From a virus: a stretch of 64,000 nucleotides of DNA. The first letter of the stretch is position 1. Each line of letters opens with the position of its first letter. The stretch spans positions 1 to 64,000 of IMG/VR virus record IMGVR_UViG_3300044631_002636. One strand, written 5' to 3'. This document shows, one piece after another, positions 30,355 to 46,010 of this stretch. The position numbers and the translations under genes were made by a program. The notes beneath the pieces were generated by a model. The model ran no database searches, had not been told where the DNA came from, and saw only the letters and a list, made by a program, of their open reading frames with translations.

Positions 30355-32370
30355 ATGACTAATAATAGAGAGTTATCGCAAATAGCAAATCTTATTGAGG
30401 TATTAGATACCAGTAAACATATCAATATTAAAAGTCAAGAGGGACAAAATATTGGTATTGGAACTACTATTCCAAATGCAAAAGTTGAAGTTGTTGGTAA
30501 TGTTAATGTTACTGGTATTTTAACAGCACAATCTATTGTTTCTTCAAATACTAATACATTACGGAATTTAAATGCTACTGGAATAATCACATCAGTTAAT
30601 GTAAATGTCACTGGTATTGCCACTGCACAAAATTTAAGGGTAGTTGGCGTTTCAACCTTCCAAAATCACGCTTATTTTGGTGATAATGATACTTTATACT
30701 TTGGTGATGGAAATGATCTTCAAATTTTCCATAACGGAGCAAATAATAATAGTTATATTACAAATGCTGCTGCAAATTTATATTTAATCAGTAATACTAG
30801 CGTTAATATTATAACACCTAGCGGAGAAAACTCAGCAATTTTTAATGGAAATGGTTCAGTAGAACTTTATCATGATAATGTAAAGAAATTTCAAACAACT
30901 GCTGGTGGTGCAATTGTTACTGGTATTTTAACAGCAACAACATTAGTTGGTAGTGTTTCTTATGCAGCATCAACTGGATTCTCTACAACATCCAGTTATG
31001 CGACTGTTGCAGGTCTTTCTACATCAGCAACATCAGCAACATCAGCAACTTACGCAGTAACTGCTGGATTTGCTACACAAACAACATATTCAACTACATC
31101 TGGAGTTTCAACTGCAGTAAACGGAACTGTAGATGTTACTCTATTAAGATCTGCAGGAATTTCAACATTTACAAATGGACCAATTTTGATTGGTTCTGGA
31201 ACTTCAACTGGAACCGCATCACAAACACTTCAAGTTACTGGTGGTGCTTATGTAAGTAATAATCTTGGTATAGGAACCACAAATCCAACATCTAGACTTT
31301 TTGTAACACAATCAGGAACAAATCCTTCTACTGCTGGTGAATCTGGAGCACACGCATTTGCGCTTTCTTCTGGAAATACTGGAAGAACTATGTGGATGGG
31401 ATATGATGATAATATTGATGCTGGTTATATTAATGTTGCAAAAACAGGACAGTCCAGACCAATTTATCTTCAAACCAGAAACTTAACAAATGCTACAACA
31501 GTATTTGTTGGTATTGGAACTACACAGGGAACTGGAACTGCAAATCAATATCTTCAAGTTGGTGGTGGTGCTTATGTTTCTGGCAATCTGGGTATAGGAA
31601 CCACAAATCCAGTTGAAAAGTTTCATGTTCAAGGGAATTCTTACTTTAATGGAAATGTAGGATTTAATACCACCATTATTAATGGTTCTACACAAGTAGA
31701 TTTTGGAAATAGTAACGCTTACTTTGGTGGATATGTTAATGTTGGATTGGGAATTACTTTAGCGAACGTTGCAAGAGTTAATTTTATTGGAGGAGTAAGT
31801 AATTCTGGTGGTGTTGGGCATCTTTTAGTAACTTCTAATAATACTGATATACCAACGACAATTTTTTCGGGAAGTAATGGAGGAAGATTATCAATCTTTG
31901 CTGGAGGAATGACTTCCTCTTCACAAAGAGGTGGTCAAATTGATTTTGTTGGTGGAGCGTCATCAACTTATCCAGGAGAACTTTTATTCAGAACTGGTAT
32001 TGGAACATTAGGAACTGAGCAACCTATTACAGCAAGACTTGATACTTCAGGTATAATGTATGCAAATACATTTACTTCAACCTCCGATGAAAGACTCAAA
32101 GCGAATATTGAAAGAATTGATGATCCATTTGTGATCTTAAATGAAGTTAAAGGTGTAAGATTTAATTGGAAAGATGGTGGAGATCCTTCGGTTGGTGTAA
32201 TTGCACAAGATGTAGAAAAGGTTCTACCAGAAGCAGTTAAGACAGACCCAGAAGGAATGAAATCAGTTTGCTATGATATGCTGATTGGTGTTCTGATAGA
32301 GGCGATTAAAGATCAGCAGAAGAGAATTGATGATCTGGAGGCGCGTCTAGATGCCCACGAACAACTTTAG
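30355..32370 (+). CDS. Tail fibre with C-terminal peptidase S74 chaperone
   Basis: A 671-residue fibre. Residues 1-560 are shaft repeats (NIGIGTTIPNAKVEVVGNV; LGIGTTNP) with a module at about 115-180 (TLYFGDGNDLQIFHNG). From about 572 the intramolecular chaperone of endosialidase (S74) begins: TSTS577-D-E-R-L-K582-A-N-I, then VIAQDVEKVLPEAV and a C-terminal helix. S74 domains trimerise the shaft and then cut themselves off at the Ser of SDERLK, with the Lys assisting. The last 20 nt overlap the first RCC1 gene in another frame. Confidence 0.88.
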   Translation: MTNNRELSQIANLIEVLDTSKHINIKSQEGQNIGIGTTIPNAKVEVVGNVNVTGILTAQSIVSSNTNTLRNLNATGIITSVNVNVTGIATAQNLRVVGVSTFQNHAYFGDNDTLYFGDGNDLQIFHNGANNNSYITNAAANLYLISNTSVNIITPSGENSAIFNGNGSVELYHDNVKKFQTTAGGAIVTGILTATTLVGSVSYAASTGFSTTSSYATVAGLSTSATSATSATYAVTAGFATQTTYSTTSGVSTAVNGTVDVTLLRSAGISTFTNGPILIGSGTSTGTASQTLQVTGGAYVSNNLGIGTTNPTSRLFVTQSGTNPSTAGESGAHAFALSSGNTGRTMWMGYDDNIDAGYINVAKTGQSRPIYLQTRNLTNATTVFVGIGTTQGTGTANQYLQVGGGAYVSGNLGIGTTNPVEKFHVQGNSYFNGNVGFNTTIINGSTQVDFGNSNAYFGGYVNVGLGITLANVARVNFIGGVSNSGGVGHLLVTSNNTDIPTTIFSGSNGGRLSIFAGGMTSSSQRGGQIDFVGGASSTYPGELLFRTGIGTLGTEQPITARLDTSGIMYANTFTSTSDERLKANIERIDDPFVILNEVKGVRFNWKDGGDPSVGVIAQDVEKVLPEAVKTDPEGMKSVCYDMLIGVLIEAIKDQQKRIDDLEARLDAHEQL

Positions 32371-33574
32371 AACTCCAGAAGGAGACTTAGAAAACCAAAC
32401 TTACATTACCGAATCCTGGTTAGTAGACCAATGGATTGGTGATCAACTTTGGACTTGGGGATATAATTTATATGGACAACTTGGAATTAATAATATTGTC
32501 GTAACAAAATCAACTCCAGTTACTACTCTCGCTGGAGGAACTAATTGGAAACAAGTTGATGGTGGATTGGGGCATTCTGCTGCAATTAAAACTGATGGAA
32601 CTTTATGGTTGTGGGGAGATAATAGTAATGGGCAACTTGGAATTAACTTAAGTGGAGTAAACCCAAATGCAGCACGTTCTACTCCAGTAACAACATTTGC
32701 TGGAGGAACCAACTGGAAACAAGTTTCTTGTGGCAATTATCATACTGCAGCAATCAAAACTGACGGAACATTATGGATGTGGGGAAGTAATAGTGTTGGA
32801 CAACTGGGAATTAATTTATTTCCAGCGGCTCCAAATTCAGCTCGTTCTACTCCAGTAACAACATTTGCTGGAGGAAATAATTGGAAACAAGTTGTATGTT
32901 CTTCAGATCATACAGCAGCAATCAAAACTGATGGAACTTTATGGACTTGGGGTTCTGGAGATTTTGGGCAACTTGGAGACAATACAGTAACTCAAAGACT
33001 TACTCCAATAACTACATTTGCTGGAGGAACTAATTGGAAACAAGTTGCTGGAAATACTGGAGCATATCATGTAGCAGCAATCAAAACTGATGGAACTTTA
33101 TGGACTTGGGGAACAAATATTTCAGGAGAATTGGGAACAAATGACAATCTTTATAGATCTATACCAGTACAAGTATTTGGAAATACTAATGATTGGAAAC
33201 AAGTTGCTGTAAGTAGAGACCAAACTGCAGCAATTAAAACTAATGGAACCCTATGGACTTGGGGAGATAATACTGTAAATCGAGCTGGATCTATAGGTGA
33301 CAATACAATAATAGGTAGATCTACTCCAGTCACAACATTTGCTGGAGGAAATAATTGGAAGCAAGTTGCATGTGGATATTCTTTTAAGTCTGCAATAAAA
33401 ACCGATGGAACTTTGTGGTCTTGGGGTGGAGATTATTATTCACAATTAGGCACTATCAATCCAACTTCATATAGACCCACTCCAGTCACTACATTTGCTG
33501 GAGGAAATAATTGGAGACAAGTTGCATGTGGATATGAATTTGCTATGGCAGTAACATCAGGACCAGATTACTAA
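32351..33574 (+). CDS. RCC1-like seven-bladed propeller protein 1
   Basis: A 407-residue protein with seven RCC1-type repeats of about 52 residues, each with an LWTWGxNxxGQLG core and an NWKQVxCGxxHTAAIKTDG segment. RCC1 and BLIP-II folds use such repeats as seven-bladed beta-propellers for protein or ligand binding. A 35-residue N-terminal extension (NNFRTPEGDLENQTYITES) is shared almost exactly with the next gene and may anchor the propeller to a fibre or baseplate. Location among fibres points to an adhesin. Start ATG overlaps the end of the S74 fibre gene. Binding partner unknown. Confidence 0.85.
   Translation: MPTNNFRTPEGDLENQTYITESWLVDQWIGDQLWTWGYNLYGQLGINNIVVTKSTPVTTLAGGTNWKQVDGGLGHSAAIKTDGTLWLWGDNSNGQLGINLSGVNPNAARSTPVTTFAGGTNWKQVSCGNYHTAAIKTDGTLWMWGSNSVGQLGINLFPAAPNSARSTPVTTFAGGNNWKQVVCSSDHTAAIKTDGTLWTWGSGDFGQLGDNTVTQRLTPITTFAGGTNWKQVAGNTGAYHVAAIKTDGTLWTWGTNISGELGTNDNLYRSIPVQVFGNTNDWKQVAVSRDQTAAIKTNGTLWTWGDNTVNRAGSIGDNTIIGRSTPVTTFAGGNNWKQVACGYSFKSAIKTDGTLWSWGGDYYSQLGTINPTSYRPTPVTTFAGGNNWRQVACGYEFAMAVTSGPDY
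32360..32452 (+). repeat. 93-bp direct repeat, copy 1
   Basis: Identical over 93 bp to 33585-33677. It encodes the N-terminal anchor segment and the first residues of the propeller of RCC1 protein 1, in the same reading frame as copy 2. Confidence 0.92.
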
Positions 33575-33575
33575 A

Positions 33576-34772
33576 ATGCCAATAAACAACTTTAGAACTC
33601 CAGAAGGAGACTTAGAAAACCAAACTTACATTACCGAATCCTGGTTAGTAGACCAATGGATTGGTGATCAACTTTGGGTTTGGGGAGACAATACTTCTGG
33701 ACAGCTTGGGCAAAATTTAATTTCATCCAGCAGATCAACACCAATCACAACGCTTCCTGGTGGAAATAATTGGAAACAGATTTCTTGTGGAGAAAGTCAC
33801 AGTGCAGCAATCAAAACTGATGGAACTTTATGGACTTGGGGATTAAATTCTTATGGACAATTGGGAAATAATTTAGGAACAGGTGCAGGAACTGCCAATA
33901 GATCCACGCCAGTCACAACATTTGCTGGAGGAACTAACTGGAAACAAGTTTCTTGTGGAAGACTTTTTACTACAGCAATCAAAACTGATGGGACCCTATG
34001 GACTTGGGGGAGAAATCAATTTGGTCAGTTGGGAACTAACAATTCTGTAGATCGTTCAACTCCAGTTACAACATTTACTGGAGGTAATAATTGGAAACAA
34101 ATTAGTGGAGGATTTAATCATACTGCAGCAGTTAAAACTGATGGAACTTTATGGGGGTGGGGACGTAATTCTTATGCTCAACTAGGAGTCAATGATACAA
34201 CGGATAGATTTTCTCCAGTAGAAACATCAGCTGCAGGAACTAATTGGAAACAAGTTGCATGTGGATCTGAATTTACAGCAGCAATTAAAACAGACGGCAC
34301 TTTATGGGCATGGGGAAATGGAACTGCTGGAATACTTGGAAATAATCAATTTAATAATAGATCTACGCCAGTAACAACTTTTGCTGGAAATACCAACTGG
34401 AAACAAGTTTCATGTGGCATTTTGCATATGGCAGCAATAAAAACAGATGGAACTTTATGGGCTTGGGGAAGTAATTTTAGTGGAATGCTGGGCATTAATG
34501 ACAATAATCCTGGAGGTATTTTAACCCCTGTAACAACATTTTCTGGAGGAAATAACTGGAAACAAGTAAGTTGTGGAACTAATTTTTCTGCAGCAATCAA
34601 AACTGACGGAACATTATGGTTATGGGGTCAAAATAATACTGGACAATTGGGAAATGGTAATACTGTAAACCGTTCAACTCCAGTTACAACATTTGCTGGC
34701 GGAAATAATTGGAAACAAGTATCTACTGGACAAGGACATACTATGGTAGTAACATCAGGACCAGAATACTAA
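33576..34772 (+). CDS. RCC1-like seven-bladed propeller protein 2
   Basis: A 398-residue paralogue of the preceding gene, starting 1 nt after its stop. It has seven RCC1 repeats (LWVWGDNTSGQLG to LWLWGQNNTGQLG), the same N-terminal anchor through the 93-bp repeat, and the same C-terminal TSGPxY end. The blades differ mainly in the loops and in the residues after LGxN, where binding specificity of propellers resides. It is a whole-gene tandem duplicate that has diverged; likely role as for protein 1. Confidence 0.85.
   Translation: MPINNFRTPEGDLENQTYITESWLVDQWIGDQLWVWGDNTSGQLGQNLISSSRSTPITTLPGGNNWKQISCGESHSAAIKTDGTLWTWGLNSYGQLGNNLGTGAGTANRSTPVTTFAGGTNWKQVSCGRLFTTAIKTDGTLWTWGRNQFGQLGTNNSVDRSTPVTTFTGGNNWKQISGGFNHTAAVKTDGTLWGWGRNSYAQLGVNDTTDRFSPVETSAAGTNWKQVACGSEFTAAIKTDGTLWAWGNGTAGILGNNQFNNRSTPVTTFAGNTNWKQVSCGILHMAAIKTDGTLWAWGSNFSGMLGINDNNPGGILTPVTTFSGGNNWKQVSCGTNFSAAIKTDGTLWLWGQNNTGQLGNGNTVNRSTPVTTFAGGNNWKQVSTGQGHTMVVTSGPEY
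33585..33677 (+). repeat. 93-bp direct repeat, copy 2
   Basis: Identical to 32360-32452. Recombination between the copies would delete RCC1 gene 1 and leave one intact in-frame RCC1 gene. Confidence 0.92.
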
Positions 34773-34789: not shown

Positions 34790-35443
34790 ATGTACGCTCT
34801 AGTAGACGGTTCAATGGTCTTGTTAGGACCAATTCCATTTAATTACAGAATGATTAATTCTGTTTTAGAAGATGATCTAGAATTGGATCAGCGTGTATCT
34901 TCAATTGACGAGGCAAGAGTTCCTTTTAATATTACGGACACTGTAAGAATTGTTCCAGCAAAAAATGAGTACTCTCCGTTTTATAATGCCAAATATCATG
35001 AGCATACGGGACCATCAGTAGGAATTTTCCAAAATGAAGTGGTATTTCTTTATGGTACAAGAGATAAGTCTATTGATCAAGTAAAAGCGGAAAGAAAAGT
35101 AGAAATTGCTCCAGTCAGAAAAGAGAAAGAAAATACTGAGATTAATCTAACTATAAACGGAACGGAAGTAAAGATATCAACCAGCAGAGATAATCGTCTC
35201 TCATTAGCATCAAAAGCAATGAGTGGTGTTGGTCCTTACAATTTTAAATTTGATAATCAGACTTGGGTGGAGATTACAAAAACTGATATTGAATATATTT
35301 TACAGCAAATTGATCTAAAAGTACAAGAAGCATTTGATTGGGAACTTGCAAAAAACCAAGAGATTGATGCATGTCAAACAATAGATGAGGTTTATGAAGT
35401 TGTCATTAGACCTCCAGTAGTAATCGGATCCTACGAGGATTAA
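34790..35443 (+). CDS. Fibre assembly-like protein (DUF4376-type C-terminus)
   Basis: A 217-residue protein. The N-terminal third resembles fibre-associated small proteins (MYALVDGSMVLLGPIPFNYR). The C-terminal half (NLTINGTEVKISTSRDNRLSL, then WVEITKTDIEYILQQIDLKVQEAFDWELAKNQEID) has the pattern of DUF4376 domains found in tail-fibre assembly proteins: a beta hairpin, then a long helix with QxAFxxE...I. It ends in GSYED, and the DNA coding this end recurs at the end of the next gene. Probably helps assemble the adjacent RCC1 proteins; inference from position. Confidence 0.6.
   Translation: MYALVDGSMVLLGPIPFNYRMINSVLEDDLELDQRVSSIDEARVPFNITDTVRIVPAKNEYSPFYNAKYHEHTGPSVGIFQNEVVFLYGTRDKSIDQVKAERKVEIAPVRKEKENTEINLTINGTEVKISTSRDNRLSLASKAMSGVGPYNFKFDNQTWVEITKTDIEYILQQIDLKVQEAFDWELAKNQEIDACQTIDEVYEVVIRPPVVIGSYED
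35427..35443 (+). repeat. 17-bp direct repeat, copy 1
   Basis: Identical to 36636-36652 (one mismatch extends the match to 21 bp on the left). It codes SYED-stop at the end of the assembly-like gene; together the copies bracket RCC1 gene 3. Confidence 0.85.
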
Positions 35444-35446
35444 GAA

Positions 35447-36652
35447 ATGATCTCAACAACTAATTTCATAGGATCAGATGGAGTTGATGTAGGATCTAAA
35501 CTCCTAGAGAAAGAATACTTTAATAGTGTTTATTTAAACATTGCGAATCGATATATTACCCCAGAGTTATGGGGATGGGGATTTGGTGTTGATGGGCAAT
35601 TAGGGACAAATGATATAGAATCCAAATCTACTCCAATCACAACATTTGCAGGTGGTGCCAACTGGAAACAAGTTGCTTGCGGAAGACACCATACAACTGC
35701 AATAAAAAATGATGGTACTTTATGGATTTGGGGTGGAAATAATTCTCTTTATCTTAGTCTTGGAACAAATAATATAGGCAATTCTAGAACTCCAATCACT
35801 ACATTTTCTGGAGGAACAAATTGGAAACAAATAAGTTGCGGTCCTTTTCATAATGCAGCAATTAAAACGGATGGATCTCTATGGTCATGGGGAAACAACT
35901 CTTATGGAAAACTTGGAATAAATTCCAATATTGTTGTTTCTACACCAGTTACTACATTTGCGGGGGGTAATAATTGGAAACAAGTGAGTTGTGGATTTAA
36001 TCATACTGCAGCAGTAAAAACTGATGGATCTTTATGGTTATGGGGTCAAAATACTAATGGACAATTAGCAAATAATACTGCAGCAAATAGATCTACACCA
36101 GTAACTACATTTGCTGGAGGTAATGATTGGAAACAAGTTTCTTGCGGATCTCTTCATACTGCAGCGGTTAAAACTGATGGAACTTTATGGTTATGGGGTA
36201 GTAATGCTATTGGACAACTTGGACAACCTTCCCCTCAACCCAACCGTTCAACTCCAATAACAACATTTGGTGGGGGAAATAATTGGAGACAGGTTAGCTG
36301 TGGGTATTACCATACCACAGCAATTAAAACTGATGGAACTTTATGGGGTTGGGGATTGAATGGTAGTGGTCAACTTGGTACTAATACTGTATCTAACGCA
36401 TTAACTCCAGTCACAACATTTGCTGGAGGAAACAATTGGAAACAGATTTCTTGCGGAGGGAATAGCACTGCAGCGATTAAAACAGATGGGACGTTATGGA
36501 TTTGGGGATTTAATAATTTTGGACAACTTGGAATTAATAATACAACTTTAAGATTAACGCCAGTCACAACATTCATAGGTGGAAATAATTGGAAATCTGT
36601 GAGTTTTAATGACAATGCAACTGTTTTTGCAATCAGATCCTACGAGGATTAA
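35447..36652 (+). CDS. RCC1-like seven-bladed propeller protein 3
   Basis: A 401-residue protein with seven RCC1 repeats (LWGWGFGVDGQLG to LWIWGFNNFGQLG). Its N-terminal extension (MISTTNFIGSDGVDVGSKLLEKEYFN) differs from that of proteins 1 and 2, suggesting a different attachment point, while its blades remain close to theirs. The C-terminus SYED and its coding DNA duplicate the end of the preceding gene. It starts 3 nt after that gene. Probably another adhesin or fibre accessory. Confidence 0.85.
   Translation: MISTTNFIGSDGVDVGSKLLEKEYFNSVYLNIANRYITPELWGWGFGVDGQLGTNDIESKSTPITTFAGGANWKQVACGRHHTTAIKNDGTLWIWGGNNSLYLSLGTNNIGNSRTPITTFSGGTNWKQISCGPFHNAAIKTDGSLWSWGNNSYGKLGINSNIVVSTPVTTFAGGNNWKQVSCGFNHTAAVKTDGSLWLWGQNTNGQLANNTAANRSTPVTTFAGGNDWKQVSCGSLHTAAVKTDGTLWLWGSNAIGQLGQPSPQPNRSTPITTFGGGNNWRQVSCGYYHTTAIKTDGTLWGWGLNGSGQLGTNTVSNALTPVTTFAGGNNWKQISCGGNSTAAIKTDGTLWIWGFNNFGQLGINNTTLRLTPVTTFIGGNNWKSVSFNDNATVFAIRSYED
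36636..36652 (+). repeat. 17-bp direct repeat, copy 2
   Basis: Second copy of the repeat at 35427-35443, forming the 3' end of RCC1 gene 3. Confidence 0.85.
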
Positions 36653-36659
36653 ATAAATA
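36652..36659 (+). promoter_or_regulatory. Late promoter box AATAAATA
   Basis: One mismatch to TATAAATA, touching the stop of RCC1 gene 3 and 20 nt before the first gene of the glycan operon, suggesting that the glycan genes are expressed late. Confidence 0.45.
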
Positions 36660-36679: not shown

Positions 36680-38032
36680 ATGAATCCACTTGAGTTGGTA
36701 GCAAAAACATTACATTCGTTTAGTGAAAAAGAACTAACTTATCAATTGTTGGATGCCTTTGGGAAAAGAGCGCAAACAGTCCAACAATATGATGATGTTG
36801 CAAAGATATTTTTTGAAGTCAAAAACTTTCCCAAAGCAATTGAATATGGGGAAAAGGCACTTCAACAAGCAAAGACAAAACAAGAAAGATATATCCTTTC
36901 AAAAAATTTAATTAATGCGTATAATCAGTCAAATTATCCAGAAAAAGCACTTACTCAAATAGAGTTTTGTAAGAAAATAAATCCACAGGATTCAGAATTA
37001 TTATTGGAAGAAACTTTTGCATACTCGGCATTAGGACAGAAAGATAAATCTGAAAAACTATTATTCAATCTTCTTCAAAAGAAACTGCCAGAAGAGATTG
37101 AAAGAAAAGCATATCACAATCTATCTGGACATTACTTTAGAAAGAATGATATAAAAACTGCATTAAAGCATTTTTTAAGAGCTGGTGAAATTGAAGCATA
37201 TAAGAATCAAAAACTACCCGAATATGAAAAGTGGGACGGAACTGTTACTCCAGGAAGAACTATTATTATTGATAACCAATGCGGAGCTGGTGATGAAGTG
37301 ATTCATATTCGCTTCATGAAACATCTTAAAGAATTGGGAATGAAACCAATTTGGAATTCTACCCGAAGGGAACTTGTAGAATTATTCAATTACAATGGAT
37401 ATGATGCAGTCTGTTGTTGGGATAAACCACAATTTCCTAAAGATTCTTGTTGGGTTTATGGTCTAGCACTGCCTTATCATCTAGACTTGAATGTTGAAGA
37501 ACTTGGAAAGCATCCTTATCTGAAACCAATTGCAGAAATTGATGAGAAGTGGAAATGGATGCATAAAGACGAAGGTTTTAAAGTAGGATTATTTTGGGCA
37601 TCAAGTTCTGGATATGAACAGAATCAGTTTAGAAGCGTAAGTCTTGATGATTATATGAGTGTTCTTAAGAACAAAAACATTTCACTCTATTCATTACAAA
37701 CACATGCTGACAATAAAGACGCAGACAAATATCCAGAAATAAAACAATCTTTATCTATTCCCGATAGAGAATATGCGGATACTTTCTCAATCATCAATAA
37801 CCTAGATCTTATAATCACATCATGTAGTTTTACTGCTCATGTTGCAGCATCTTTAGGAAAAGAAGTTTGTGTATTTGTTCCTATTATGGAATATTATGTT
37901 TGGATACATGAATCAGGAAAGTCTGCTTGGTATGGAGACAATGTTCATATATTTAAGCAAGTAAAACCTAGAGATTGGAAAGGTCCAATAAATAAGTTGA
38001 GTGAATTTTTAATGAATAGAGGGTTAACTTGA
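36680..38032 (+). CDS. TPR protein with GT-B glycosyltransferase domain
   Basis: A 450-residue protein. Residues about 1-175 are helical TPR-like repeats (FFEVKNFPKAIEYGEKALQQAKT; AYHNLSGHYFRKNDIKTALKHFLRA). From about 190 a heptosyltransferase/GT9-like GT-B fold follows: IIIDNQCGAGDEVIHIRFMKHL (N-terminal Rossmann Gly loop), then KVGLFWASSSGYEQNQFRS and SIINNLDLIITSCSFTAHVAASLGK, the last being the typical acceptor/donor pocket of this family. It transfers sugar from an activated nucleotide to glycan or protein; the TPR part probably binds the acceptor. First gene of an operon whose members overlap by 4 nt. Substrate unknown. Confidence 0.8.
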   Translation: MNPLELVAKTLHSFSEKELTYQLLDAFGKRAQTVQQYDDVAKIFFEVKNFPKAIEYGEKALQQAKTKQERYILSKNLINAYNQSNYPEKALTQIEFCKKINPQDSELLLEETFAYSALGQKDKSEKLLFNLLQKKLPEEIERKAYHNLSGHYFRKNDIKTALKHFLRAGEIEAYKNQKLPEYEKWDGTVTPGRTIIIDNQCGAGDEVIHIRFMKHLKELGMKPIWNSTRRELVELFNYNGYDAVCCWDKPQFPKDSCWVYGLALPYHLDLNVEELGKHPYLKPIAEIDEKWKWMHKDEGFKVGLFWASSSGYEQNQFRSVSLDDYMSVLKNKNISLYSLQTHADNKDADKYPEIKQSLSIPDREYADTFSIINNLDLIITSCSFTAHVAASLGKEVCVFVPIMEYYVWIHESGKSAWYGDNVHIFKQVKPRDWKGPINKLSEFLMNRGLT

Positions 38033-38715
38033 GATTTCATACATTTTGTACAGAAAATATTCCAAATCAAATCTTAGAAGATCATAAAAAATGTTGTGAT
38101 AAACTTGACTTAGAAGTAGTCTATCACAAAGAAAAGTTTTATGATGATTACAATGCAGTTTATACTGCACATGGCAACTTCATGACTTCTATTTTAGAAG
38201 AAGAAAAAGATACTGCCTGTTTTTTAGATATTGATTGCCTTCCATATAAAAAGGAAGTCTTAGAAAAAGCATATAACTGGGCAAAAATCAATAAATCTTT
38301 TGTTGGTCATGCTCAAAATATTTCTCACACTAATATGAGAAATCACATTTATGCTGCGGCTTCATGTTTATTTGTGAATAAAACTGCGTGGCAATCACTA
38401 GGATCGCCAAGTCTTTCTTGGTTTATTCAGAATGAAAATCAAATTGATACCGCACAAATACTAACTTTGAGAGCAAATCAAATAGGAATGAACTATCAAC
38501 TCATGTATCCTTACGGATGGGATGAGGGAGAAGGTTATAAACTATCAGGATACGGAATGTATGGAACTGGGACTTGGTATCCAGGAGCATGGCATTATTT
38601 TAGAATTAGTAAGTTTAAAGAAGAAATCCCAGAACTCTGGTCAAACAGAGTTGAAGATTTTCTAAATGATCATTCAACATCACCAAATTATCTTTCATCA
38701 TTCTATGGACTATAA
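38029..38715 (+). CDS. Glycosyltransferase-like protein (GT-A, TTG start)
   Basis: A 228-residue protein. CFLDIDCLPYKK at about 64-75 contains a DxD motif as used by GT-A glycosyltransferases to hold the nucleotide sugar through a divalent metal. The segment AASCLFVNKTAWQSLGSPSLSW is compatible with an acceptor region. The start is TTG at 38029, which overlaps the TGA of the preceding gene (TTGA); no ATG is available upstream. Specificity cannot be deduced. Confidence 0.65.
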   Translation: MRFHTFCTENIPNQILEDHKKCCDKLDLEVVYHKEKFYDDYNAVYTAHGNFMTSILEEEKDTACFLDIDCLPYKKEVLEKAYNWAKINKSFVGHAQNISHTNMRNHIYAAASCLFVNKTAWQSLGSPSLSWFIQNENQIDTAQILTLRANQIGMNYQLMYPYGWDEGEGYKLSGYGMYGTGTWYPGAWHYFRISKFKEEIPELWSNRVEDFLNDHSTSPNYLSSFYGL

Positions 38716-39475
38716 ATTTTTATTTTTAGTTGGTTCTGCCGTTGAGCATTTTAAATCAAATGATTTTAGTTATTTTACTGCTGAGCAACGTTTTGAACAA
38801 ACTTTAGAAACAATCAGATCAGTAAAAGAAAAAGTTCCAGATGCTTACATTTGTGTTTATGAAGTATCTCCAATAAAGATTAGTGAAAAGTATAGAGAAA
38901 GATTTATTGAAGAGTCTGATCTATTTTTAGAATTTTATGGAGAGCCAGGAATCCAACTTCTTTATGATAATCTAAACAAGCAACCAGACCGCTTTGTTTA
39001 TGGCAAGTCAATGCTTGAGTGTAGAGCACTCTTAAACGTGTTTGAATACATGAAGACTCATAATATTTTCTCAGATGTAACTCGTGTCTTTAAAATCAGC
39101 GGACGTTACACTCTGAATAATTATTTCAACATTGAAGATTATAAGACCAGTTTCCTTCAAAATTATTATGTCGCCAAACTTTATTCTTATGATAGTAAGA
39201 GATTTGAAGATACTGAAAATATATACTTAGATCTTTACGCAGCAAAAGGAATGGTTGTAACTGGATTATGGTCATTTGATCGGTTCCTTTTTGGTGATGT
39301 TGTTGATGCTTTAGAAAAAAGTTTTGGTTATATGGAAAGAGCAATTCAATATACTGCAGGAATTGATATAGAACATTCTCTTTATCATTTCTTAGATAGG
39401 AATAAAATTTTAAACATTCCAACTTTGGGTCTAGATGTTCTTAAAGGAATGGATGGAGATTCATATTCACTATGA
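38705..39475 (+). CDS. Glycosyltransferase-like protein (possibly WavE-type)
   Basis: A 256-residue protein. The ATG at 38705 gives MDYKFLFLVGSAVEHF, a plausible Rossmann first strand, and overlaps the previous gene by 11 nt; a more upstream ATG at 38666 would overlap by 50 nt. TRVFKISGRYTLN resembles the K(I/L)R.DRY motif of WavE-like lipopolysaccharide synthesis proteins. No clear DxD motif was found. Surrounded by glycosyltransferases, it very likely belongs to the same pathway; the enzymatic activity itself is uncertain. Confidence 0.5.
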   Translation: MDYKFLFLVGSAVEHFKSNDFSYFTAEQRFEQTLETIRSVKEKVPDAYICVYEVSPIKISEKYRERFIEESDLFLEFYGEPGIQLLYDNLNKQPDRFVYGKSMLECRALLNVFEYMKTHNIFSDVTRVFKISGRYTLNNYFNIEDYKTSFLQNYYVAKLYSYDSKRFEDTENIYLDLYAAKGMVVTGLWSFDRFLFGDVVDALEKSFGYMERAIQYTAGIDIEHSLYHFLDRNKILNIPTLGLDVLKGMDGDSYSL

Positions 39476-40143
39476 AAATTGCAATCTTCTATCACGTATT
39501 TCAGAATGGAATAAGTGCATTTATTTACCAACAACAAATCCATCGTTTATGTGCATCTGGTCTTGTTAAAGCAGCAGACCTAATTCATATTGGAGTTAAT
39601 GGTTCAAATGAATTATTCAATATTCCAGATAATGCGAGAGTTGTTTATAATGAGAATCAAAAAGAAGAGACAGATACTCTGTGCTCTTTAAGAGATTTTT
39701 GTAAGGAAAATGGAGATTATAAAGTTCTTTATTTTCATTTAAAGGGAGGAAGTAAACAAACTCTCCATCACGATTCGTGGAGACTTATGATGGAATATTT
39801 TGTCATTGACCGTTGGAAAGAATGTGTCACAGCACTAGAAGAAGGATATGATTGTGCTGGACAAACATGGGAACCATTGGGAGATACTGTATGGTCTGAT
39901 GGATCTAGAACTTCAAATGAAGGCGTAGGATTTTATCCAGGAAACTTTTGGTGGGCAAATGCATCTTATATTAATACACTAGATAATAAGTATTTGGAAA
40001 GTGGTTATCGTCTTGATCGTGAATTTTGGATAGGTTCAAATAAAAACCATAAGGCAAAATCATTGAACAAGTGGAAAGATAATTATTGTATAGAAAATGA
40101 TCTAGATACTTATTATTTTTCAGAGAAAGAATACATGCTATGA
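39472..40143 (+). CDS. Glycosyltransferase-like protein, YFHLKG type
   Basis: A 223-residue protein. LYFHLKGGSKQTLHHDSWRLMMEYFVI, GYDCAGQTW and FYPGNFWWANASYINTL match the Y.HTKG...WR..M......W..C...L..GYD..G...GN.WWA pattern seen in polysaccharide-biosynthesis proteins related to rhamnan-synthesis glycosyltransferases. It overlaps both neighbours by 4 nt. Likely adds a sugar in the surface-glycan pathway; donor and acceptor unknown. Confidence 0.65.
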   Translation: MKIAIFYHVFQNGISAFIYQQQIHRLCASGLVKAADLIHIGVNGSNELFNIPDNARVVYNENQKEETDTLCSLRDFCKENGDYKVLYFHLKGGSKQTLHHDSWRLMMEYFVIDRWKECVTALEEGYDCAGQTWEPLGDTVWSDGSRTSNEGVGFYPGNFWWANASYINTLDNKYLESGYRLDREFWIGSNKNHKAKSLNKWKDNYCIENDLDTYYFSEKEYML

Positions 40144-40511
40144 GAGAATGTGGAGATTGCACAGCATGTTGCACTTGGTTAATTGGTAATGCTTATGGTT
40201 ATGATTTTGGCAATGGAAAATCCTGCAAGTTTTTATGCGGGTCTGGATGCAGTGTCCATAAAGCAAGACCAAATGTTTGCATGAATTACTTTTGTGCTTG
40301 GGCTCAAGAAGTGTTACCTATTGAAATGAGACCTGATAGATGTAAGTTTTTAGTTTCAGTTGAAAACAAAGAAGAAAAACAATACTTAAAAATTTTACCT
40401 ATAGAGAATCAGGAAATAAATACTAATACATTAGATTGGTTTAAAATCTGGAGTTCTTTAATGAATACTCCAGTCATTTACTTGAAAGAAAATAACTGGA
40501 TAGAGCTCTAA
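40140..40511 (+). CDS. YkgJ-like zinc/iron-chelating protein
   Basis: A 123-residue protein with an N-terminal cysteine cluster C4-x2-C7-x2-C10-C11, C29, C33, C37, C47 and C52 (CGDCTACCTWL ... GCSVHKARPNVCMNYFC). This is the pattern of the YkgJ family of putative zinc- or iron-chelating proteins, whose function is undefined. It is coupled to the glycosyltransferase before it and ends 1 nt before RCC1 gene 4. It may be a metallochaperone or a modifying enzyme for one of the glycan products. Confidence 0.75.
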   Translation: MRECGDCTACCTWLIGNAYGYDFGNGKSCKFLCGSGCSVHKARPNVCMNYFCAWAQEVLPIEMRPDRCKFLVSVENKEEKQYLKILPIENQEINTNTLDWFKIWSSLMNTPVIYLKENNWIEL

Positions 40512-40512
40512 A

Positions 40513-41745
40513 ATGTCAGGTAAATTTAATTTCACACAAAACGGACAAGAAGTAGCATTTGATGATGTCTTTGTATCAGCAAGATTGTTTCAGCAGGGAA
40601 CTGCTTGGAACTGGGGACTCAATGTAAACGCGCAATTGGGAACTAATGATTTAATAACCAGAAGTAGTCCAGTTATTATGTTATCTGGAGCACAATATTG
40701 GAATGATATATGCAATGGTCGTTTTAGTGGATATGGAATAGCGGCTGACGGACAAATGTTCGTTTGGGGAAACAATAGTTATGGACAATTAGGGACAAAT
40801 GGGGTTCCTGTTCAAGCAACAACTCCAACTGTAATTAGTGGAGATAAAACTTGGAGAAGTCTTTCTACTGGAGCAGAAACATTTGTTGCTGCAATTAAAA
40901 CTGATGGTTCCCTATGGACTTGGGGACAAAATCAGTTTGGACAATTAGGAATAGGAATCACTGTTACACGTTCAACTCCAGTTACAACATTTGCTGGGGG
41001 AAATAACTGGAAGCAAGTTTCTTGTGGAAGACATTTTGCAGCAGCTGTTAAAACTGACGGAAGTTTGTGGGTTTGGGGAAATAATTATGGAGCAAGACTT
41101 GGAATAGGAACATATACATTTCCTGGACCAGATCTTATTAGATCAACTCCAGTAACCACATTTGCTGGTGGAAATGATTGGAAGTCAGTTGATTGTGGTT
41201 ACGGACACGCATTAGCAATTAAAAATGATGGAAAATTATATGCATGGGGAGTAAATGATGGAGCTCAATGTGGAAAAAATCCATCAATCCTTTTTGTAAC
41301 TATTCCAACTGAAGTTGAACCAGGATTTGTTTGGAGAACAGCATCAGCGGGAAGATCTCACAGTGCTGCAATTAAAGATAATGGTTCTTTATGGGTATGG
41401 GGAATAAACAGTGATGGTCAGTTAGGCGTTGGCGTAACAAATAACTCAATTTATACATCACCATTCCAATTATATGGAGCTGATTTTAATAATAATTATG
41501 GATCAGGTAATTGGAAAGATGTTTCATGTGGACAATATCATACCGTTGCTTTGAAATCAGATGGCACATTATGGGCATGGGGATTAAATAGTAACGGTCA
41601 AGTTGGTATTGGCAATACTTTAATTCAAAGAGTTTCATTCCCAACACAAGTGACAACAAATACTGATTGGAGAAAGATATCAGTTGGTCCAATGTCACAA
41701 TGGACTCTAGCAAACAAATATGACGGAACAGTATTATACCCATAA
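40513..41745 (+). CDS. RCC1-like seven-bladed propeller protein 4
   Basis: A 410-residue protein with seven RCC1 repeats (AWNWGLNVNAQLG to LWAWGLNSNGQVG). The N-terminal extension (SGKFNFTQNGQEVAFDDVFVSARLFQQG) is unlike those of the other three copies and its blades are more diverged. It is embedded in the glycan operon, between the YkgJ-like gene and the sulfotransferase, with gaps of 1-3 nt. Such embedding hints that the propeller and the glycan enzymes serve one purpose, for example a propeller that is itself glycosylated or one that recognises the modified glycan. Confidence 0.85.
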   Translation: MSGKFNFTQNGQEVAFDDVFVSARLFQQGTAWNWGLNVNAQLGTNDLITRSSPVIMLSGAQYWNDICNGRFSGYGIAADGQMFVWGNNSYGQLGTNGVPVQATTPTVISGDKTWRSLSTGAETFVAAIKTDGSLWTWGQNQFGQLGIGITVTRSTPVTTFAGGNNWKQVSCGRHFAAAVKTDGSLWVWGNNYGARLGIGTYTFPGPDLIRSTPVTTFAGGNDWKSVDCGYGHALAIKNDGKLYAWGVNDGAQCGKNPSILFVTIPTEVEPGFVWRTASAGRSHSAAIKDNGSLWVWGINSDGQLGVGVTNNSIYTSPFQLYGADFNNNYGSGNWKDVSCGQYHTVALKSDGTLWAWGLNSNGQVGIGNTLIQRVSFPTQVTTNTDWRKISVGPMSQWTLANKYDGTVLYP

Positions 41746-41748
41746 ATT

Positions 41749-42540
41749 ATGAAAAATTCTTTGTTATTTCTATCTGGTCTTCCAAGATCAGGATCTACAC
41801 TTCTTGGGTCGATTTTAAATCAGCACCCAGATATTCATGTAACTCCAACAAGTCCATTATCAGACTTACTTTGTTTAGTTGATGAAAACTTTTCTAGATT
41901 AGATATTCAATATACTTATGATAAAATAAATATTACTCATAATACATATTCATCTATACTTAATAATTTTTATTCCCATATACCTAAAGAATATGTGATT
42001 GATAAACATAGAGCATGGCCTAGAAATGTAAATTCAGTTAAAAAATTCTTAGGAAAAGATCCAAAAATTATCTGCACAAACAGAAGAATTAGTGAAGTAA
42101 TTGCTTCATACATTACATTAATTAAAAAAAATAATCAACAAGATAATTTTGTTGACAATTATCTAAGATCAATTGGAAAAGAAATTACACTAGACAATAG
42201 AGTTGAATGTCTATGGAGAAATTATATTTCTGACCCATATGAAAGTACAGTATTTGGACTGAGTAACTTTCGTAGCAATATTCATTTGGTTGATTATAAT
42301 AACCTAACTAACGATCCACAGAAAGAATTAGAAAAGATTTATAATTTTTTGCAGATAGAATCCTTTGACCACGACTTTAATAACATTCTAAATACATGTG
42401 CAGAAGAAAAAGATGCTGCTTGGGGATTAGAAAATCTTCATAAAATCCGCTCCAAACTTGGTAGAACTAATCTTCCACCAGAAGAAGTTATAGGAAAAGA
42501 AAATACAGATCTCTTTGACAAATTTAATATTAATCTATGA
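41749..42540 (+). CDS. PAPS-dependent sulfotransferase
   Basis: A 263-residue enzyme. The N-terminal LSGLPRSGSTLLGSIL (residues 8-23) is the 5'-phosphosulfate-binding P-loop of sulfotransferases; TNRRISEVIASY near residue 110 fits the 3'-phosphate site (R...R...S). It transfers sulfate from PAPS to a hydroxyl or amine of a glycan or protein. The C-terminus (DPQKELEKIYNFLQIESFD) matches the typical helical end of the family. Overlaps the following methyltransferase by 4 nt. The phage would rely on host PAPS. Confidence 0.85.
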   Translation: MKNSLLFLSGLPRSGSTLLGSILNQHPDIHVTPTSPLSDLLCLVDENFSRLDIQYTYDKINITHNTYSSILNNFYSHIPKEYVIDKHRAWPRNVNSVKKFLGKDPKIICTNRRISEVIASYITLIKKNNQQDNFVDNYLRSIGKEITLDNRVECLWRNYISDPYESTVFGLSNFRSNIHLVDYNNLTNDPQKELEKIYNFLQIESFDHDFNNILNTCAEEKDAAWGLENLHKIRSKLGRTNLPPEEVIGKENTDLFDKFNINL

Positions 42541-43223
42541 AATCATTAATTGAAATCTTTAAGCAAAATAATGATAGACCAATTCATAAATGGTTACATT
42601 ATTTCGACTTATATGAGAGGCACTTATCTAAGTATAGAAATAAACCTATAAAATTACTTGAAATTGGCGTTCAAGGTGGTGGTTCCCTGCAAATGTGGAA
42701 ACAGTATTTTGGACCCGACTCTGAAATTTTAGGAATTGATATTCATGAAGAATTTAAATTTGCTGAGGATCAAATTACTGTAGAGATTGGAGACCAATCA
42801 GATGAGATTTTTCTAAAAAGAATATGCGAAGAGCATGGTCCTTTTGATATTATCATTGATGATGGAAGTCACATTCAATCCGATGTTCTAAATTCTTTTT
42901 TCTTTTTGTATCCAACTCTGAATAATGGTGGATGTTATATTGTAGAAGATACTCACACCGCTTATTTTAATATATTTCAAGGAGGATTGAGATCTAATAC
43001 AAATTCAATTTCTGTTTTTAGTAACTTTGTTCATAACATGAATATTGAATACATGGAAGAACCATTTAATCCAGTAATAGAAAACCTATCAGGATTATCT
43101 TTTTACAACTCAATGATAGTCTTTGAAAAAGAAAGTTTCAAAGACAAGTATGTGATGAAAGTATCTAAAGAAGAAAAAACTATTCAAACAGCAAAAGAAT
43201 TTTTTGGGAACATGGCAAAATGA
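42537..43223 (+). CDS. Class I SAM-dependent methyltransferase (CmcI/MycE-like)
   Basis: A 228-residue enzyme. E42-I-G-V-Q-G-G-G49 is motif I of class I methyltransferases; ILGIDIHEE is motif II; FDIIIDDGSHIQSDVLNSFFFLYPTLNNGGCYIVEDTH is the metal- and SAM-binding region typical of CmcI/MycE-type sugar O-methyltransferases. Likely O-methylates a sugar of the glycan built by this operon. Overlaps both neighbours by 4 nt. Confidence 0.8.
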   Translation: MKSLIEIFKQNNDRPIHKWLHYFDLYERHLSKYRNKPIKLLEIGVQGGGSLQMWKQYFGPDSEILGIDIHEEFKFAEDQITVEIGDQSDEIFLKRICEEHGPFDIIIDDGSHIQSDVLNSFFFLYPTLNNGGCYIVEDTHTAYFNIFQGGLRSNTNSISVFSNFVHNMNIEYMEEPFNPVIENLSGLSFYNSMIVFEKESFKDKYVMKVSKEEKTIQTAKEFFGNMAK

Positions 43224-43936
43224 AAAAGGTTGAAGTATTTTTACGTCATTGCTTTTACTCTAAGTTGCAAGAGCAACCATCAAGATCTAGACCATCTTGG
43301 TGGGATAAAGAAAAAGTATTTGAAAATTTTAAAAGAACTCTTGATCCAGAACTGATCAATTATACCATCATATATGATGAACATTATGGAAAAATTGAAG
43401 ATACATTTTTAAAAGATGAAGAAGGTTTAGTAAAAATTAACGAAGGTGGAGAAGCAAAAAGTTTCCTAAAAACCTTAGAATATGTTGATAGTCAAAACTT
43501 TGATGATAATACAATCATTTACTTTCTAGAAGATGATTATGTTCATAGAGATAATTGGACTCAAGTTTTAATTGAAGGATTTGATATTAAAGTGAATGAA
43601 AAGGACACGGTGAAATACATTACATTGTATGATCATGGGGACAAATACAGTGGAATGTATTCAAGTCTAATGTCCAGAGTTTTAATCACAGAAAATTCTC
43701 ATTGGAGACCTGTTCCTTCAACTACAAATACCTTCGCTACTACCTTTGGTAATTTAAAAGATGACTTAGATATCCATGTTAAATACTCAACGGATGTTGA
43801 ACCATCCAATGATCATATTAAATTTCTTGAATTAAGTCAAAAAGGAAAATATTTGGCATCATCTATACCTGGATATTCCACACATTGTCACTCAGAATTT
43901 CTATCACCTTGTATTGATTGGGAGAAGTACCTATGA
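43220..43936 (+). CDS. Glycosyltransferase-like protein (GT-A)
   Basis: A 238-residue protein. IIYFLEDDYVHRDNW at about 96-110 is an EDD/DxD-type metal and nucleotide-sugar site preceded by a hydrophobic strand, as in GT-A folds. TTNTFATTFGNLKDD and a C-terminal HCHSEFLSP segment follow. The family is not recognised precisely, but the operon context and DxD motif support glycosyl transfer. Confidence 0.6.
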   Translation: MKKVEVFLRHCFYSKLQEQPSRSRPSWWDKEKVFENFKRTLDPELINYTIIYDEHYGKIEDTFLKDEEGLVKINEGGEAKSFLKTLEYVDSQNFDDNTIIYFLEDDYVHRDNWTQVLIEGFDIKVNEKDTVKYITLYDHGDKYSGMYSSLMSRVLITENSHWRPVPSTTNTFATTFGNLKDDLDIHVKYSTDVEPSNDHIKFLELSQKGKYLASSIPGYSTHCHSEFLSPCIDWEKYL

Positions 43937-45474
43937 AAGTAAGTTTATATTCTATCGCAAAAAATGAAGAAAAGAATATTGAAAAGTTTCTAAAGAATGC
44001 GGAAAAATTTGATGAGGTTGTTGTAGTTGATACTGGTAGTATTGACAATACAGTTCAGTTGCTGAGGGATGCTGGAATTACTGTTTATGAGCATCCACAA
44101 TCTAGAGATGAGTTTGATTTTTCAGTAGCAAGAAATCAGGCACTTTCATATGCAACAAATGATTGGTGCTTGAGTTTAGATTTCAATGAAGATATTGACG
44201 ATTACTTTGCAGATGGTTTAGATCAGATTGAAGATCAATTCAGCGCATTTAAGCATCTTAGATTTGATGATAAAGACGGACAAATTTATCCATCAAATGA
44301 AGTTCACATTCGTTTTCATAGAAAAGAAAATTATAAGTGGGTTAATGCTGTTCATGAAACTCCAATTTTTGTAGCAACGGAAAACTTTCCAAAAGAAAAT
44401 GTAGTAGATGTCACTACGAAAATTACAAAGTTAATTAATAAAAGTGTAGATAAAGAACTTTTTTACCTTTCAATTTGTGAGAGAGAACTTAAGACTAATC
44501 CTACAAATTGGTATTACATTTGGTTTGTTTTCAATCATCATCTAACTGTAAAAAATTATGAACTAGCTTTAGATTATGGACAGCAATTCTTAACTTGCAC
44601 TCAAGCATATTTTAATAGTTTTAGAGTAAAAGTGTTTGTTGAATGTAGTAAAATATTTTTCCAGAATGGAGATATTCAAAGATCTGCAAATTATCTTATT
44701 CATTCAATGAGTGAGTCTTTGATGCTTGGGGAACCGTTTGCAATCGAATCTTTCCAAAATCTTTTTGGTTTCAGTAAAGAAATTGGAAATCTGGATCTTA
44801 CTGTATTCTCAACTGCTTTTATTCCAGAATTAAGAGAATCTTCAGCAAGAAGTGAGGCAATCAAAGAGTTGAGCAGAAAAAACTATGAGGATATTCATAG
44901 TTGCTGGAAAGGACACAAGAATTTTGCAAAGTGGTTGGTATCTACAATTAAACCTGAGGTTGTGGTCGATCTTGGTGTTGATCATGGATATTCTACATTT
45001 GTATTTGGAACACCTAAGGTTGGACAAAAAGTATATGGAGTTGATACCTTCGAAGGTGATCAATATGCGGGCGCAAGAGATTCTAACCAACTGTTTGAAT
45101 TTGTCACTCAGAAAGCGCGTGAGACTGGTCTAGATGACTCTGTAACCTTCATTAAAGGTACTTTTGATGATGTTGCTAAGACTTGGGATAAAAAGATTAA
45201 TCTGCTCCATATAGACGGGGATCATGCATATGAATCAGTAAAGAATGATTATGAGACATGGAGTAAATTCTTAGACGATGATGGTATTATTCTATTTCAT
45301 GATACTATGGTTGAAAATATTAACGGTAATGAATATGGGGTAAAAAGATTCTTTGAGGAATTAGACTTACCAAAAGTCAATTTTACTCATACATTTGGAT
45401 TGGGAATAGTTTCTAAGAATGAAAAATTAATTGAGTTCATTAAAACTAATATTAATCTTGATGCTCCATTATGA
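43933..45474 (+). CDS. Family-2 glycosyltransferase fused to a SAM methyltransferase
   Basis: A 513-residue fusion. The N-terminus (SLYSIAKNEEKNIEKFL, VVVVDTGSIDNTVQLL, WCLSLDFNEDI) is a GT2 fold in which the DxD position reads DFNED; residues about 170-310 are helical and TPR-like. From about 340 a class I methyltransferase of the Methyltransf_24 kind follows (VVVDLGVDHGYSTFVF, VYGVDTFEGD, INLLHIDGDHAYESV, GIILFHDTM). One chain could thus add and then methylate a sugar. The ATG at 43933 overlaps the previous stop (ATGA); an ATG at 43918 is less likely. Confidence 0.8.
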   Translation: MKVSLYSIAKNEEKNIEKFLKNAEKFDEVVVVDTGSIDNTVQLLRDAGITVYEHPQSRDEFDFSVARNQALSYATNDWCLSLDFNEDIDDYFADGLDQIEDQFSAFKHLRFDDKDGQIYPSNEVHIRFHRKENYKWVNAVHETPIFVATENFPKENVVDVTTKITKLINKSVDKELFYLSICERELKTNPTNWYYIWFVFNHHLTVKNYELALDYGQQFLTCTQAYFNSFRVKVFVECSKIFFQNGDIQRSANYLIHSMSESLMLGEPFAIESFQNLFGFSKEIGNLDLTVFSTAFIPELRESSARSEAIKELSRKNYEDIHSCWKGHKNFAKWLVSTIKPEVVVDLGVDHGYSTFVFGTPKVGQKVYGVDTFEGDQYAGARDSNQLFEFVTQKARETGLDDSVTFIKGTFDDVAKTWDKKINLLHIDGDHAYESVKNDYETWSKFLDDDGIILFHDTMVENINGNEYGVKRFFEELDLPKVNFTHTFGLGIVSKNEKLIEFIKTNINLDAPL

Positions 45475-45830
45475 AAATAACTATTCCAATTTCGGTTGGC
45501 GAACTTCTAGACAAAATAAGCATACTTCAAATAAAGTTTCAAAAAACCTCAAGTGAATATGTAGAAAAAGAATTAAATGAACTCATAAACATTGCAATAG
45601 CAAATAATGTTTATGAGATAAGTTTAATTTATAAACTAAAGAATGTAAACAAAAATCTTTGGGAGGTTGAGAATGAAGTAAGAAGATTTGAATCTTCTCA
45701 AAATTTTTGTGCTAGGTTCATTGAACTTGCACGTTCGGTCTATAAATTAAACGATGAAAGATCAAAGATTAAAAAAGAAATTAATAATTCATATAATTCA
45801 GAATTTCGTGAAATAAAAATATATCAATGA
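45471..45830 (+). CDS. DUF6165 family protein
   Basis: A 119-residue helical protein. ISVGELLDKISILQIK, LKNVNKNLWEVENEVRRFE and FIELARSVYKLNDERSKIKKEIN follow the DUF6165 pattern, found in bacterial polysaccharide-biosynthesis loci next to glycosyltransferases. Its biochemical role is unknown. Last gene of the glycan operon, overlapping the GT2-methyltransferase gene by 4 nt and ending in a palindrome and terminator. Confidence 0.75.
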   Translation: MKITIPISVGELLDKISILQIKFQKTSSEYVEKELNELINIAIANNVYEISLIYKLKNVNKNLWEVENEVRRFESSQNFCARFIELARSVYKLNDERSKIKKEINNSYNSEFREIKIYQ

Positions 45831-45850: not shown

Positions 45851-45878
45851 ACCCCGCTCAGATATCTCTGGGTGGGGT
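45851..45878 (+). terminator. Terminator of the glycan operon
   Basis: A 12-bp stem ACCCCGCTCAGA / TCTGGGTGGGGT with a 4-nt loop and two wobbles. The T-run behind it is short (TTATTG), so read-through into the next unit is possible. Confidence 0.75.
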
Positions 45879-45884
45879 TATTGT

Positions 45885-46010
45885 ATGTGGAGTTTCATCT
45901 TTCTCATGAAATTTTCAAACTTAGAACGTTTGATTTTTGTAGGATCTCTTATGCTACTAATGAATTGGGGAGTCCGTTTAACTTATATTATTCTTGATGG
46001 TCTGGTCTAA
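45885..46010 (+). CDS. Small membrane peptide
   Basis: A 41-residue frame whose middle (LERLIFVGSLMLLMNWGVRLTYIIL) is hydrophobic and could span a membrane once. Its TAA overlaps the ATG of the metallopeptidase gene (TAATG), which argues for real, coupled translation. An inner ATG at 45906 is possible. Function unknown. Confidence 0.45.
   Translation: MWSFIFLMKFSNLERLIFVGSLMLLMNWGVRLTYIILDGLV

Follow-up and report, generated by a model that had tools for sequence, protein, structure and literature searches.

Positions 36680-45830 of a 64,000-nucleotide (nt) viral DNA (the window, which makes up most of the 64,785-bp IMG/VR record IMGVR_UViG_3300044631_002636) hold eleven genes on one strand: ten enzyme-like genes, here P1 to P10, and one gene for an RCC1 propeller, RCC1 d. 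To judge from its tail genes, the window is from a T4-like freshwater cyanophage, a relative of Synechococcus phage S-SRM01 (Kyanoviridae, 240,842 bp, NC_070963), the nearest annotated genome. The cassette runs from a tetratricopeptide repeat (TPR) plus GT-B glycosyltransferase (hereafter TPR-glycosyltransferase) through P2, P3, P4, a YkgJ-like protein, RCC1 d, a sulfotransferase, a Methyltransf_24 protein, P8 and a GT2 plus Methyltransf_24 protein to a DUF6165 protein (Table 1). Eight of its ten junctions overlap, mostly by 4 nt; the largest gap is 3 nt, and RCC1 d is separated from its two neighbours by 1 and 3 nt. A preliminary description of this DNA had reported just such a run of glycan-building and decorating genes with an RCC1 propeller inside, and the run is confirmed. 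The same description had the run abut adhesin genes, which is true upstream, where RCC1 a, RCC1 b, a DUF4376-like tail protein and RCC1 c precede P1 with a gap of 27 nt, but not downstream, where a terminator-like hairpin and no adhesin genes follow.

Table 1. Features of the cassette and its surroundings (window coordinates; AF2, AlphaFold2 model; NDP, nucleoside diphosphate).
Feature	Position	Strand	Basis
RCC1 propeller a	32351..33574	+	PHROG RCC1 families; N-terminal anchor same as b (tandem duplicate)
RCC1 propeller b	33576..34772	+	Slot-b anchor (NNFRTPEGDLENQTYITESWLVDQWIGDQLW); PHROG RCC1 families
DUF4376/tail-fibre-like protein	34790..35443	+	phrog_10508 tail fiber 1e-5; kept between slots b and c
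RCC1 propeller c	35447..36652	+	Slot-c anchor; PHROG RCC1 families
ATAAATA, degenerate late-promoter-like element	36653..36659	+	Intergenic concentration of the 7-mer
P1, TPR domain + GT-B glycosyltransferase	36680..38032	+	Pfam TPR; AF2 fold; 32/36 lineages
P2, orphan, probable GT-A	38029..38715	+	Invariant DxD-like motif (LDIDC); 16/36 lineages
P3, orphan	38705..39475	+	Start probably 38705 (MDYKFLF), not 38666, from orthologue starts; 32/36 lineages
P4, GT-A-like, NDP-sugar-transferase-superfamily fold	39472..40143	+	AF2, Foldseek
P5, YkgJ-like cysteine-cluster protein	40140..40511	+	Conserved Cys; weak PF03692 in orthologues
RCC1 propeller d, inside cassette	40513..41745	+	PF25390 5.5e-77; slot-d anchor 40513-40614
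P6, sulfotransferase (Sulfotransfer_3)	41749..42540	+	Pfam 4e-18
P7, Methyltransf_24 methyltransferase, accessory	42537..43223	+	Pfam 4e-6; 1/36 lineages
P8, orphan, probable GT-A	43220..43936	+	Invariant EDD motif; 31/36 lineages
P9, GT2 domain, helical region, Methyltransf_24	43918..45474	+	Pfam; start probably 43933 from orthologues
P10, DUF6165	45471..45830	+	Pfam 1e-10
Terminator-like hairpin closing the cassette	45851..45878	+	12-bp stem, 7 GC pairs
NDP-sugar epimerase	59919..60947	+	S-SRM01 counterpart 81% identity, directly behind DUF6165 there

Conservation of the cassette and its adhesin genes

IMG/VR proteins were scanned with the TPR-glycosyltransferase, the sulfotransferase, the slot-d anchor and the YkgJ-like protein as queries, and the fetched loci were annotated with profiles. 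The 44 distinct YkgJ sequences that adjoin RCC1 d fall into 36 clusters when grouped at 90% identity, and identity drops to 48% for the most distant of them. Many of these 36 lineages are cut by contig ends, which affects the counts of gene presence: 32 for the sulfotransferase and P4, as for P1 and P3; 31 for the GT2-methyltransferase, as for P8; 28 for DUF6165; and 3 for a GT25 gene, with P2 and P7 as given in Table 1. A 2-oxoglutarate (2OG)-Fe(II) oxygenase gene, absent from the window, is present in 25 of the 36. With no query other than the 34-residue RCC1 d anchor, the YkgJ gene was found directly upstream in all 52 testable loci and the sulfotransferase gene directly downstream in 51, many of these loci being near-duplicates and not 52 independent events. 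Conservation across dozens of lineages means that the cassette is not a product of chance, and the synteny in 36 lineages rejects a one-off horizontal island.

The enzymes and the adhesins evolve at different rates. Pairwise dN/dS (the ratio of nonsynonymous to synonymous substitution rates) lies mostly within 0.02-0.2 for the core enzymes, the mark of purifying selection, whereas for RCC1 c and d it is about 0.3-0.6, several-fold faster; DUF6165 and YkgJ are intermediate. The RCC1 bodies are variable, and slots b, c and d each retain their own N-terminal anchor across lineages, as expected of adhesins fixed at set sites. In the window, RCC1 a and b (32351-34772) stand in tandem with one anchor for both, in a slot that holds a single gene in most relatives, and may be a recent adhesin duplication.

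Reduced and divergent versions of the cassette also occur. Locus L017 retains the TPR-glycosyltransferase, YkgJ, RCC1, the sulfotransferase and DUF6165. Locus L191 retains RCC1 b, DUF4376, RCC1 c, YkgJ, RCC1 d and the sulfotransferase; no recognised glycosyltransferase is present at the locus, and the TPR-glycosyltransferase is absent from its 89-kb contig, which is incomplete. In L263, RCC1 d and the sulfotransferase are both gone and a 204-residue protein stands instead, and in L217 RCC1 d is present without the sulfotransferase. The protein of about 200 residues that replaces the sulfotransferase in L217 (10033-10635), or RCC1 d plus the sulfotransferase in L263 (9369-9983), may be a different modifying enzyme. 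In Synechococcus phage BUCT-ZZ01 a tail fibre is followed, in order, by a small protein, an RCC1/BNR protein and a TPR-glycosyltransferase (profile 6e-50), and no further cassette genes were found at that locus. Marine virus AG-345-E08, whose TPR-glycosyltransferase is 22% identical to that of the window, has beside its tail genes RCC1, an intervening protein, RCC1, the TPR-glycosyltransferase, a P2-like protein, RCC1, a sulfotransferase, GT25, YkgJ, a P4-like protein and an epimerase. What these versions share is an RCC1 protein and one or two transferases rather than a complete glycan pathway. In a second lineage (L039 979-12149; L041 4572-12143), two GT25-like genes accompany the TPR-glycosyltransferase and sulfotransferase; a few kb upstream lie a collagen-like protein in L039 and two RCC1 genes in L041.

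Enzymes, transcription signals and neighbouring genes

The P1 model (AF2; pLDDT, predicted local distance difference test, 88) consists of ten TPR-type helices in an N-terminal superhelix and a C-terminal GT-B domain, the layout of OGT, SPINDLY and FlmG. Its best PDB folds by Foldseek were SPINDLY and OGT (E 2.7e-9 and weaker), its viral fold matches include GT9 and an Aah/TibC-like protein, and Pfam gave no match to GT41 (Glyco_transf_41) at E<=0.1. For P2, P3 and P8, no family was found in Pfam, NCBIfam, PHROG or PDB sequence searches, a weak PDB match of P8 to IpaD (0.007) being dismissed as chance; hhalign comparison of P2, P4 and P8 with the GT2 protein, on shallow alignments, likewise found nothing. 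On their invariant motifs, LDIDC and EDD, P2 and P8 are each a probable GT-A enzyme. P4 is predicted (AF2; pLDDT 87, predicted TM-score 0.87) to have a fold of the GT-A/nucleotidyltransferase superfamily, matching IspD, GtrB and GlmU at a TM-score of ~0.5, a fold that does not tell which of the two it is. The window's YkgJ-like protein has no Pfam match of its own, and eight of ten orthologues match PF03692 weakly (best E 0.0023).

P6 scores 66.9 bits as Sulfotransfer_3 against a 27-bit cut-off, and its nearest PDB profile match is the tyrosylprotein sulfotransferase TPST1 (1.5e-9). P9 combines GT2 (3.5e-13) and Methyltransf_24 (2.5e-23) domains in Pfam; its best PDB profile matches are GmaR (4e-10) and SunS (4e-8), and its best NCBIfam match is again SunS (7e-9), below the family cut-off. 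Degenerate active sites, a possibility raised in the preliminary description, were not seen: the 5' loop for 3'-phosphoadenosine 5'-phosphosulfate (PAPS) is intact in P6, with RSG..T invariant in PRSGSTL, and the S-adenosylmethionine (SAM) motif and the acidic glycosyltransferase motifs are conserved in the cassette enzymes, P9 having an invariant DFNE where DxD is usual. P10 scores 41.9 bits as DUF6165 against a gathering score of 27 bits. Cellular DUF6165 adjoins or is fused to a TPR-glycosyltransferase in 11 of 80 loci, which ties the first cassette gene to the last. Some such cellular pairs lie near very long repeat-rich, surface-protein-like genes (L112 5306-15565 in Rhizobium; L059 3860-14328 in a Prochlorococcus metagenome-assembled genome), a possible hint at cellular substrates. 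None of the cassette proteins has a transmembrane segment, nor was any flippase, polymerase or lipid-carrier enzyme recognised. Pfam gave no enzyme of sugar-nucleotide production at 36680-45830; the epimerase lies 14 kb off in the window and is adjacent in S-SRM01.

The late box that the preliminary description placed upstream survives in approximate form. An exact T4-type box, TATAAATA, was not found before the cassette, its only copies in the window lying at 21641 and 53155, but ATAAATA stands at 36653 on the + strand. In the first 45.8 kb all 11 copies of this 7-mer lie on the + strand and none on the - strand; 7 of these copies fall within the 1,776 noncoding bases (p = 4e-8), which makes a degenerate late motif plausible. 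TAAATA occurs at most 60 nt upstream of the TPR-glycosyltransferase gene in 12 of 14 cassette loci. A perfect sigma-70 promoter is found only after the cassette, at 46451-46480. The late-like motif, the terminator and the position of this promoter suggest that the cassette is probably transcribed late.

Other genes lie close by. An esterase of the alpha/beta-hydrolase type (phrog_3341, 29257-30312) is situated among the tail-fibre genes and might deacetylate host polysaccharide. Between the cassette and a 1052-residue apparent fusion of a helicase and an adenine-type DNA methyltransferase (46518-49676, NPPY motif) lies a small protein with a HELWH zinc-protease-like motif (46010-46465; phrog_10499, function unknown). 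The fusion gene stands just behind the sigma-70 promoter and also comes after the cassette in L195.

Candidate substrates of the cassette

We favour the reading in which the cassette decorates virion adhesins over one in which it remodels the host surface, and give it about an even chance. This was the first of two hypotheses in the preliminary description, and the case for it is indirect, built on synteny, the reduced variants, the kinds of enzyme present and the patterns of selection. The YkgJ-RCC1 d-sulfotransferase adjacency persists across the 36 lineages and is echoed in AG-345-E08. The reduced forms either keep the adhesin pairing without a pathway or lose the partners together (BUCT-ZZ01, L191, L263), and a lone TPR-glycosyltransferase, or a sulfotransferase without glycosyltransferases, kept beside RCC1 is hard to square with remodelling of lipopolysaccharide (LPS). 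The enzyme types (TPR plus GT-B, a GmaR/SunS-like GT2, a TPST-like sulfotransferase) lean towards protein modification, and the lack of transmembrane segments and of recognised flippase, polymerase or lipid-carrier enzymes argues in the same direction, as do the late-like motif upstream, the terminator downstream and the sigma-70 promoter only after the cassette. Near-constant enzymes and variable RCC1 bodies fit a phage-encoded substrate with fixed anchors. RCC1 proteins, moreover, are virion proteins in two phages: purified virions of coliphage W70 contained three of them (PMC11370258), and GAP32 is reported to have one among its structural proteins (PMC5259590).

From gene order, linkage, folds and families, selection and the reduced variants, we infer a substrate, an order of steps, a timing and a benefit as follows. 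Its enzymes, probably expressed late, would work in the host cytoplasm, ahead of assembly, and decorate RCC1-propeller adhesins that the phage itself encodes; fibres nearby may be decorated as well. The TPR-GT-B enzyme would dock a tail protein through its TPR domain and add the first sugar, as FlmG does on flagellin; the GT-A and GT2 enzymes would lengthen the glycan, and the sulfotransferase and methyltransferase domains would cap it or modify side chains. The YkgJ-like protein may mature or act on the slot-d adhesin. Receptor binding could be tuned in this way, or the tail shielded or stabilised. Somewhat more tentatively, and at a little less than even chances, we propose an adhesin-linked virion modification in which the TPR-guided glycosyltransferase, the other glycosyltransferases, the sulfotransferase and the cysteine-cluster protein would furnish the fast-evolving RCC1 adhesins with a glycan that is sulfated and sometimes methylated, or would sulfate them directly, with the YkgJ-RCC1-sulfotransferase triplet as the core.

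Several observations weigh against decoration of the adhesins. The TAAATA motif upstream of the TPR-glycosyltransferase is missing in S-SRM01 and L004, the two exceptions among the 14 loci. TM-scores of P1 to OGT and SPINDLY are only ~0.3, and its GT-B domain is also like the GT9 heptosyltransferases of LPS, one homologue giving a weak GT9 match. The Glu-Glu motif of TPST1 includes the catalytic Glu, and P6 lacks this pair, having Pro-Thr at the aligned position; it also weakly matches NoeE, a glycan sulfotransferase. The acceptor of P6 could therefore be protein or glycan. Few LPS GT2 enzymes are in the PDB, which biases the ranking of GmaR and SunS for P9, and some bacterial DUF6165 genes adjoin genes that, judged by eye, look like LPS-core genes. 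Host-surface remodelling is how published work by default explains glycosyltransferases that lie among tail-fibre genes in pelagimyophages and cyanomyophages (PMC7029224), as well as P-SSM2-type clusters (PMC7824862).

That alternative, the second hypothesis of the preliminary description, in which LPS or exopolysaccharide would be rebuilt or capped to keep related phages from adsorbing or to stop progeny from sticking to debris, is in our estimate unlikely, though the strongest of the competitors. LPS is a cyanophage receptor, and cyanobacterial exopolysaccharide bears sulfate and methyl groups (PMC4390846); the GT9-like fold, the LPS-like contexts of DUF6165 and the NDP-sugar epimerase beside the S-SRM01 cassette fit it as well. 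However, P-SSM2-type clusters contain sugar-production enzymes and are sporadic and polymorphic (PMC7824862), whereas the window's cassette is made up of transferases alone, in an order that 36 lineages preserve. Near its photosynthesis genes S-SRM01 has a glycan cluster apart from the cassette, and an NDP-sugar synthase is part of it. Reduced variants with one glycosyltransferase or none still keep the adhesin pairing, and constant enzymes are a poor match for variable host polysaccharides. A dual role is improbable: one glycan would be placed on both host surface and virion, as in molecular mimicry, or host LPS would be modified to suit the phage's own adhesins. It would accommodate a GT9-like GT-B and GT25 alongside a GmaR/SunS-like GT2, together with the adhesin linkage, but requires two substrate classes. 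Finally, the genes could be unrelated cargo gathered in a hypervariable tail hotspot beside adhesins by coincidence, and hyperplastic tail regions have been described for such phages (PMC7029224) while P2, P7, GT25 and the 2OG oxygenase vary between lineages; yet the genes hold one order throughout the 36 lineages, even where YkgJ identity is as low as 48%, the order recurs in AG-345-E08, and the enzymes are under strong purifying selection, which makes cargo very improbable.

If the cassette does decorate adhesins, then widespread freshwater, and probably also marine, cyanophages chemically modify their own host-binding proteins, sulfation included, and sequence alone would not give adhesin specificity. 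The preliminary description's claim of a substantial unreported capability is too broad, as the host-surface idea has long been proposed (PMC7029224, PMC7824862) and virion glycosylation in mycobacteriophages is reported (PMC12363180). What is new is the conserved adhesin-centred architecture with its sulfotransferase and TPR-glycosyltransferase. In the literature searched, outside which most subscription journals fall, nothing was found that describes a conserved cassette centred on RCC1 and carrying these two enzymes. We know of no phage precedent for sulfation of a phage's own host-binding proteins.

Comparison with known systems

The proposed role has its likeness in mycobacteriophages Che8, Corndog and Myrna, whose phage-encoded glycosyltransferases are reported to modify virion proteins (PMC12363180). 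Matches of P9 to mycobacteriophages were not taken as evidence of a tie to that system, since they vanish, and none remain, once the query is cut down to the GT2 domain. The clusters of P-SSM2 and the host-recognition clusters (HRC) of pelagimyophages share with the cassette the presence of glycosyltransferases and methyltransferases in or near tail-fibre genes, but they include sugar-production enzymes and are sporadic, whereas the cassette is conserved, adhesin-centred and equipped with a sulfotransferase.

The closest architectural analogue of P1 outside phages is FlmG of Caulobacter, which O-glycosylates flagellins and binds its substrate through an N-terminal TPR domain ahead of a C-terminal GT-B domain (PMC7591256). 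The likeness is one of domain arrangement, and FlmG differs in being a bacterial protein of 596 residues with another substrate. Among alphaproteobacterial TPR-glycosyltransferase homologues, one close pair only with flagellin was found (Beijerinckiaceae, ~1.8 kb apart), and most genomes of that homologue's order have no TPR-glycosyltransferase homologue; linkage to flagellin thus lends little weight. GmaR and SunS are GT2 protein and peptide glycosyltransferases like the GT2 domain of P9, which differs from them in its additional C-terminal methyltransferase and in DFNE instead of DxD.

S-SRM01 is the nearest counterpart. Its second glycan cluster (L002 1-9029, equal to NC_070963 195660-205028) contains the NDP-sugar synthase, a fucosyltransferase and glycosyltransferases near hli and psbA. 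In the text covered by a term search, the S-SRM01 paper does not mention sulfotransferase, RCC1 or LPS, and it lists glycosyltransferases elsewhere in the genome. Annotated piecemeal, gp335-gp349 (NC_070963) follow the window in RCC1, a DUF4376-like protein, RCC1, the TPR protein, P2-P5, RCC1, the sulfotransferase, P8, the GT2-methyltransferase and DUF6165, but differ in having the 2OG oxygenase and the adjacent epimerase and in being without P7. Among them gp335, gp337 and gp344 are the RCC1 proteins, gp338 is the TPR-glycosyltransferase, gp343 the YkgJ-like protein and gp345 the sulfotransferase; the host of S-SRM01 is Synechococcus KCZYC6. With this cultured phage, the role of tail-region glycosyltransferases in cyanophages and pelagiphages becomes directly testable.

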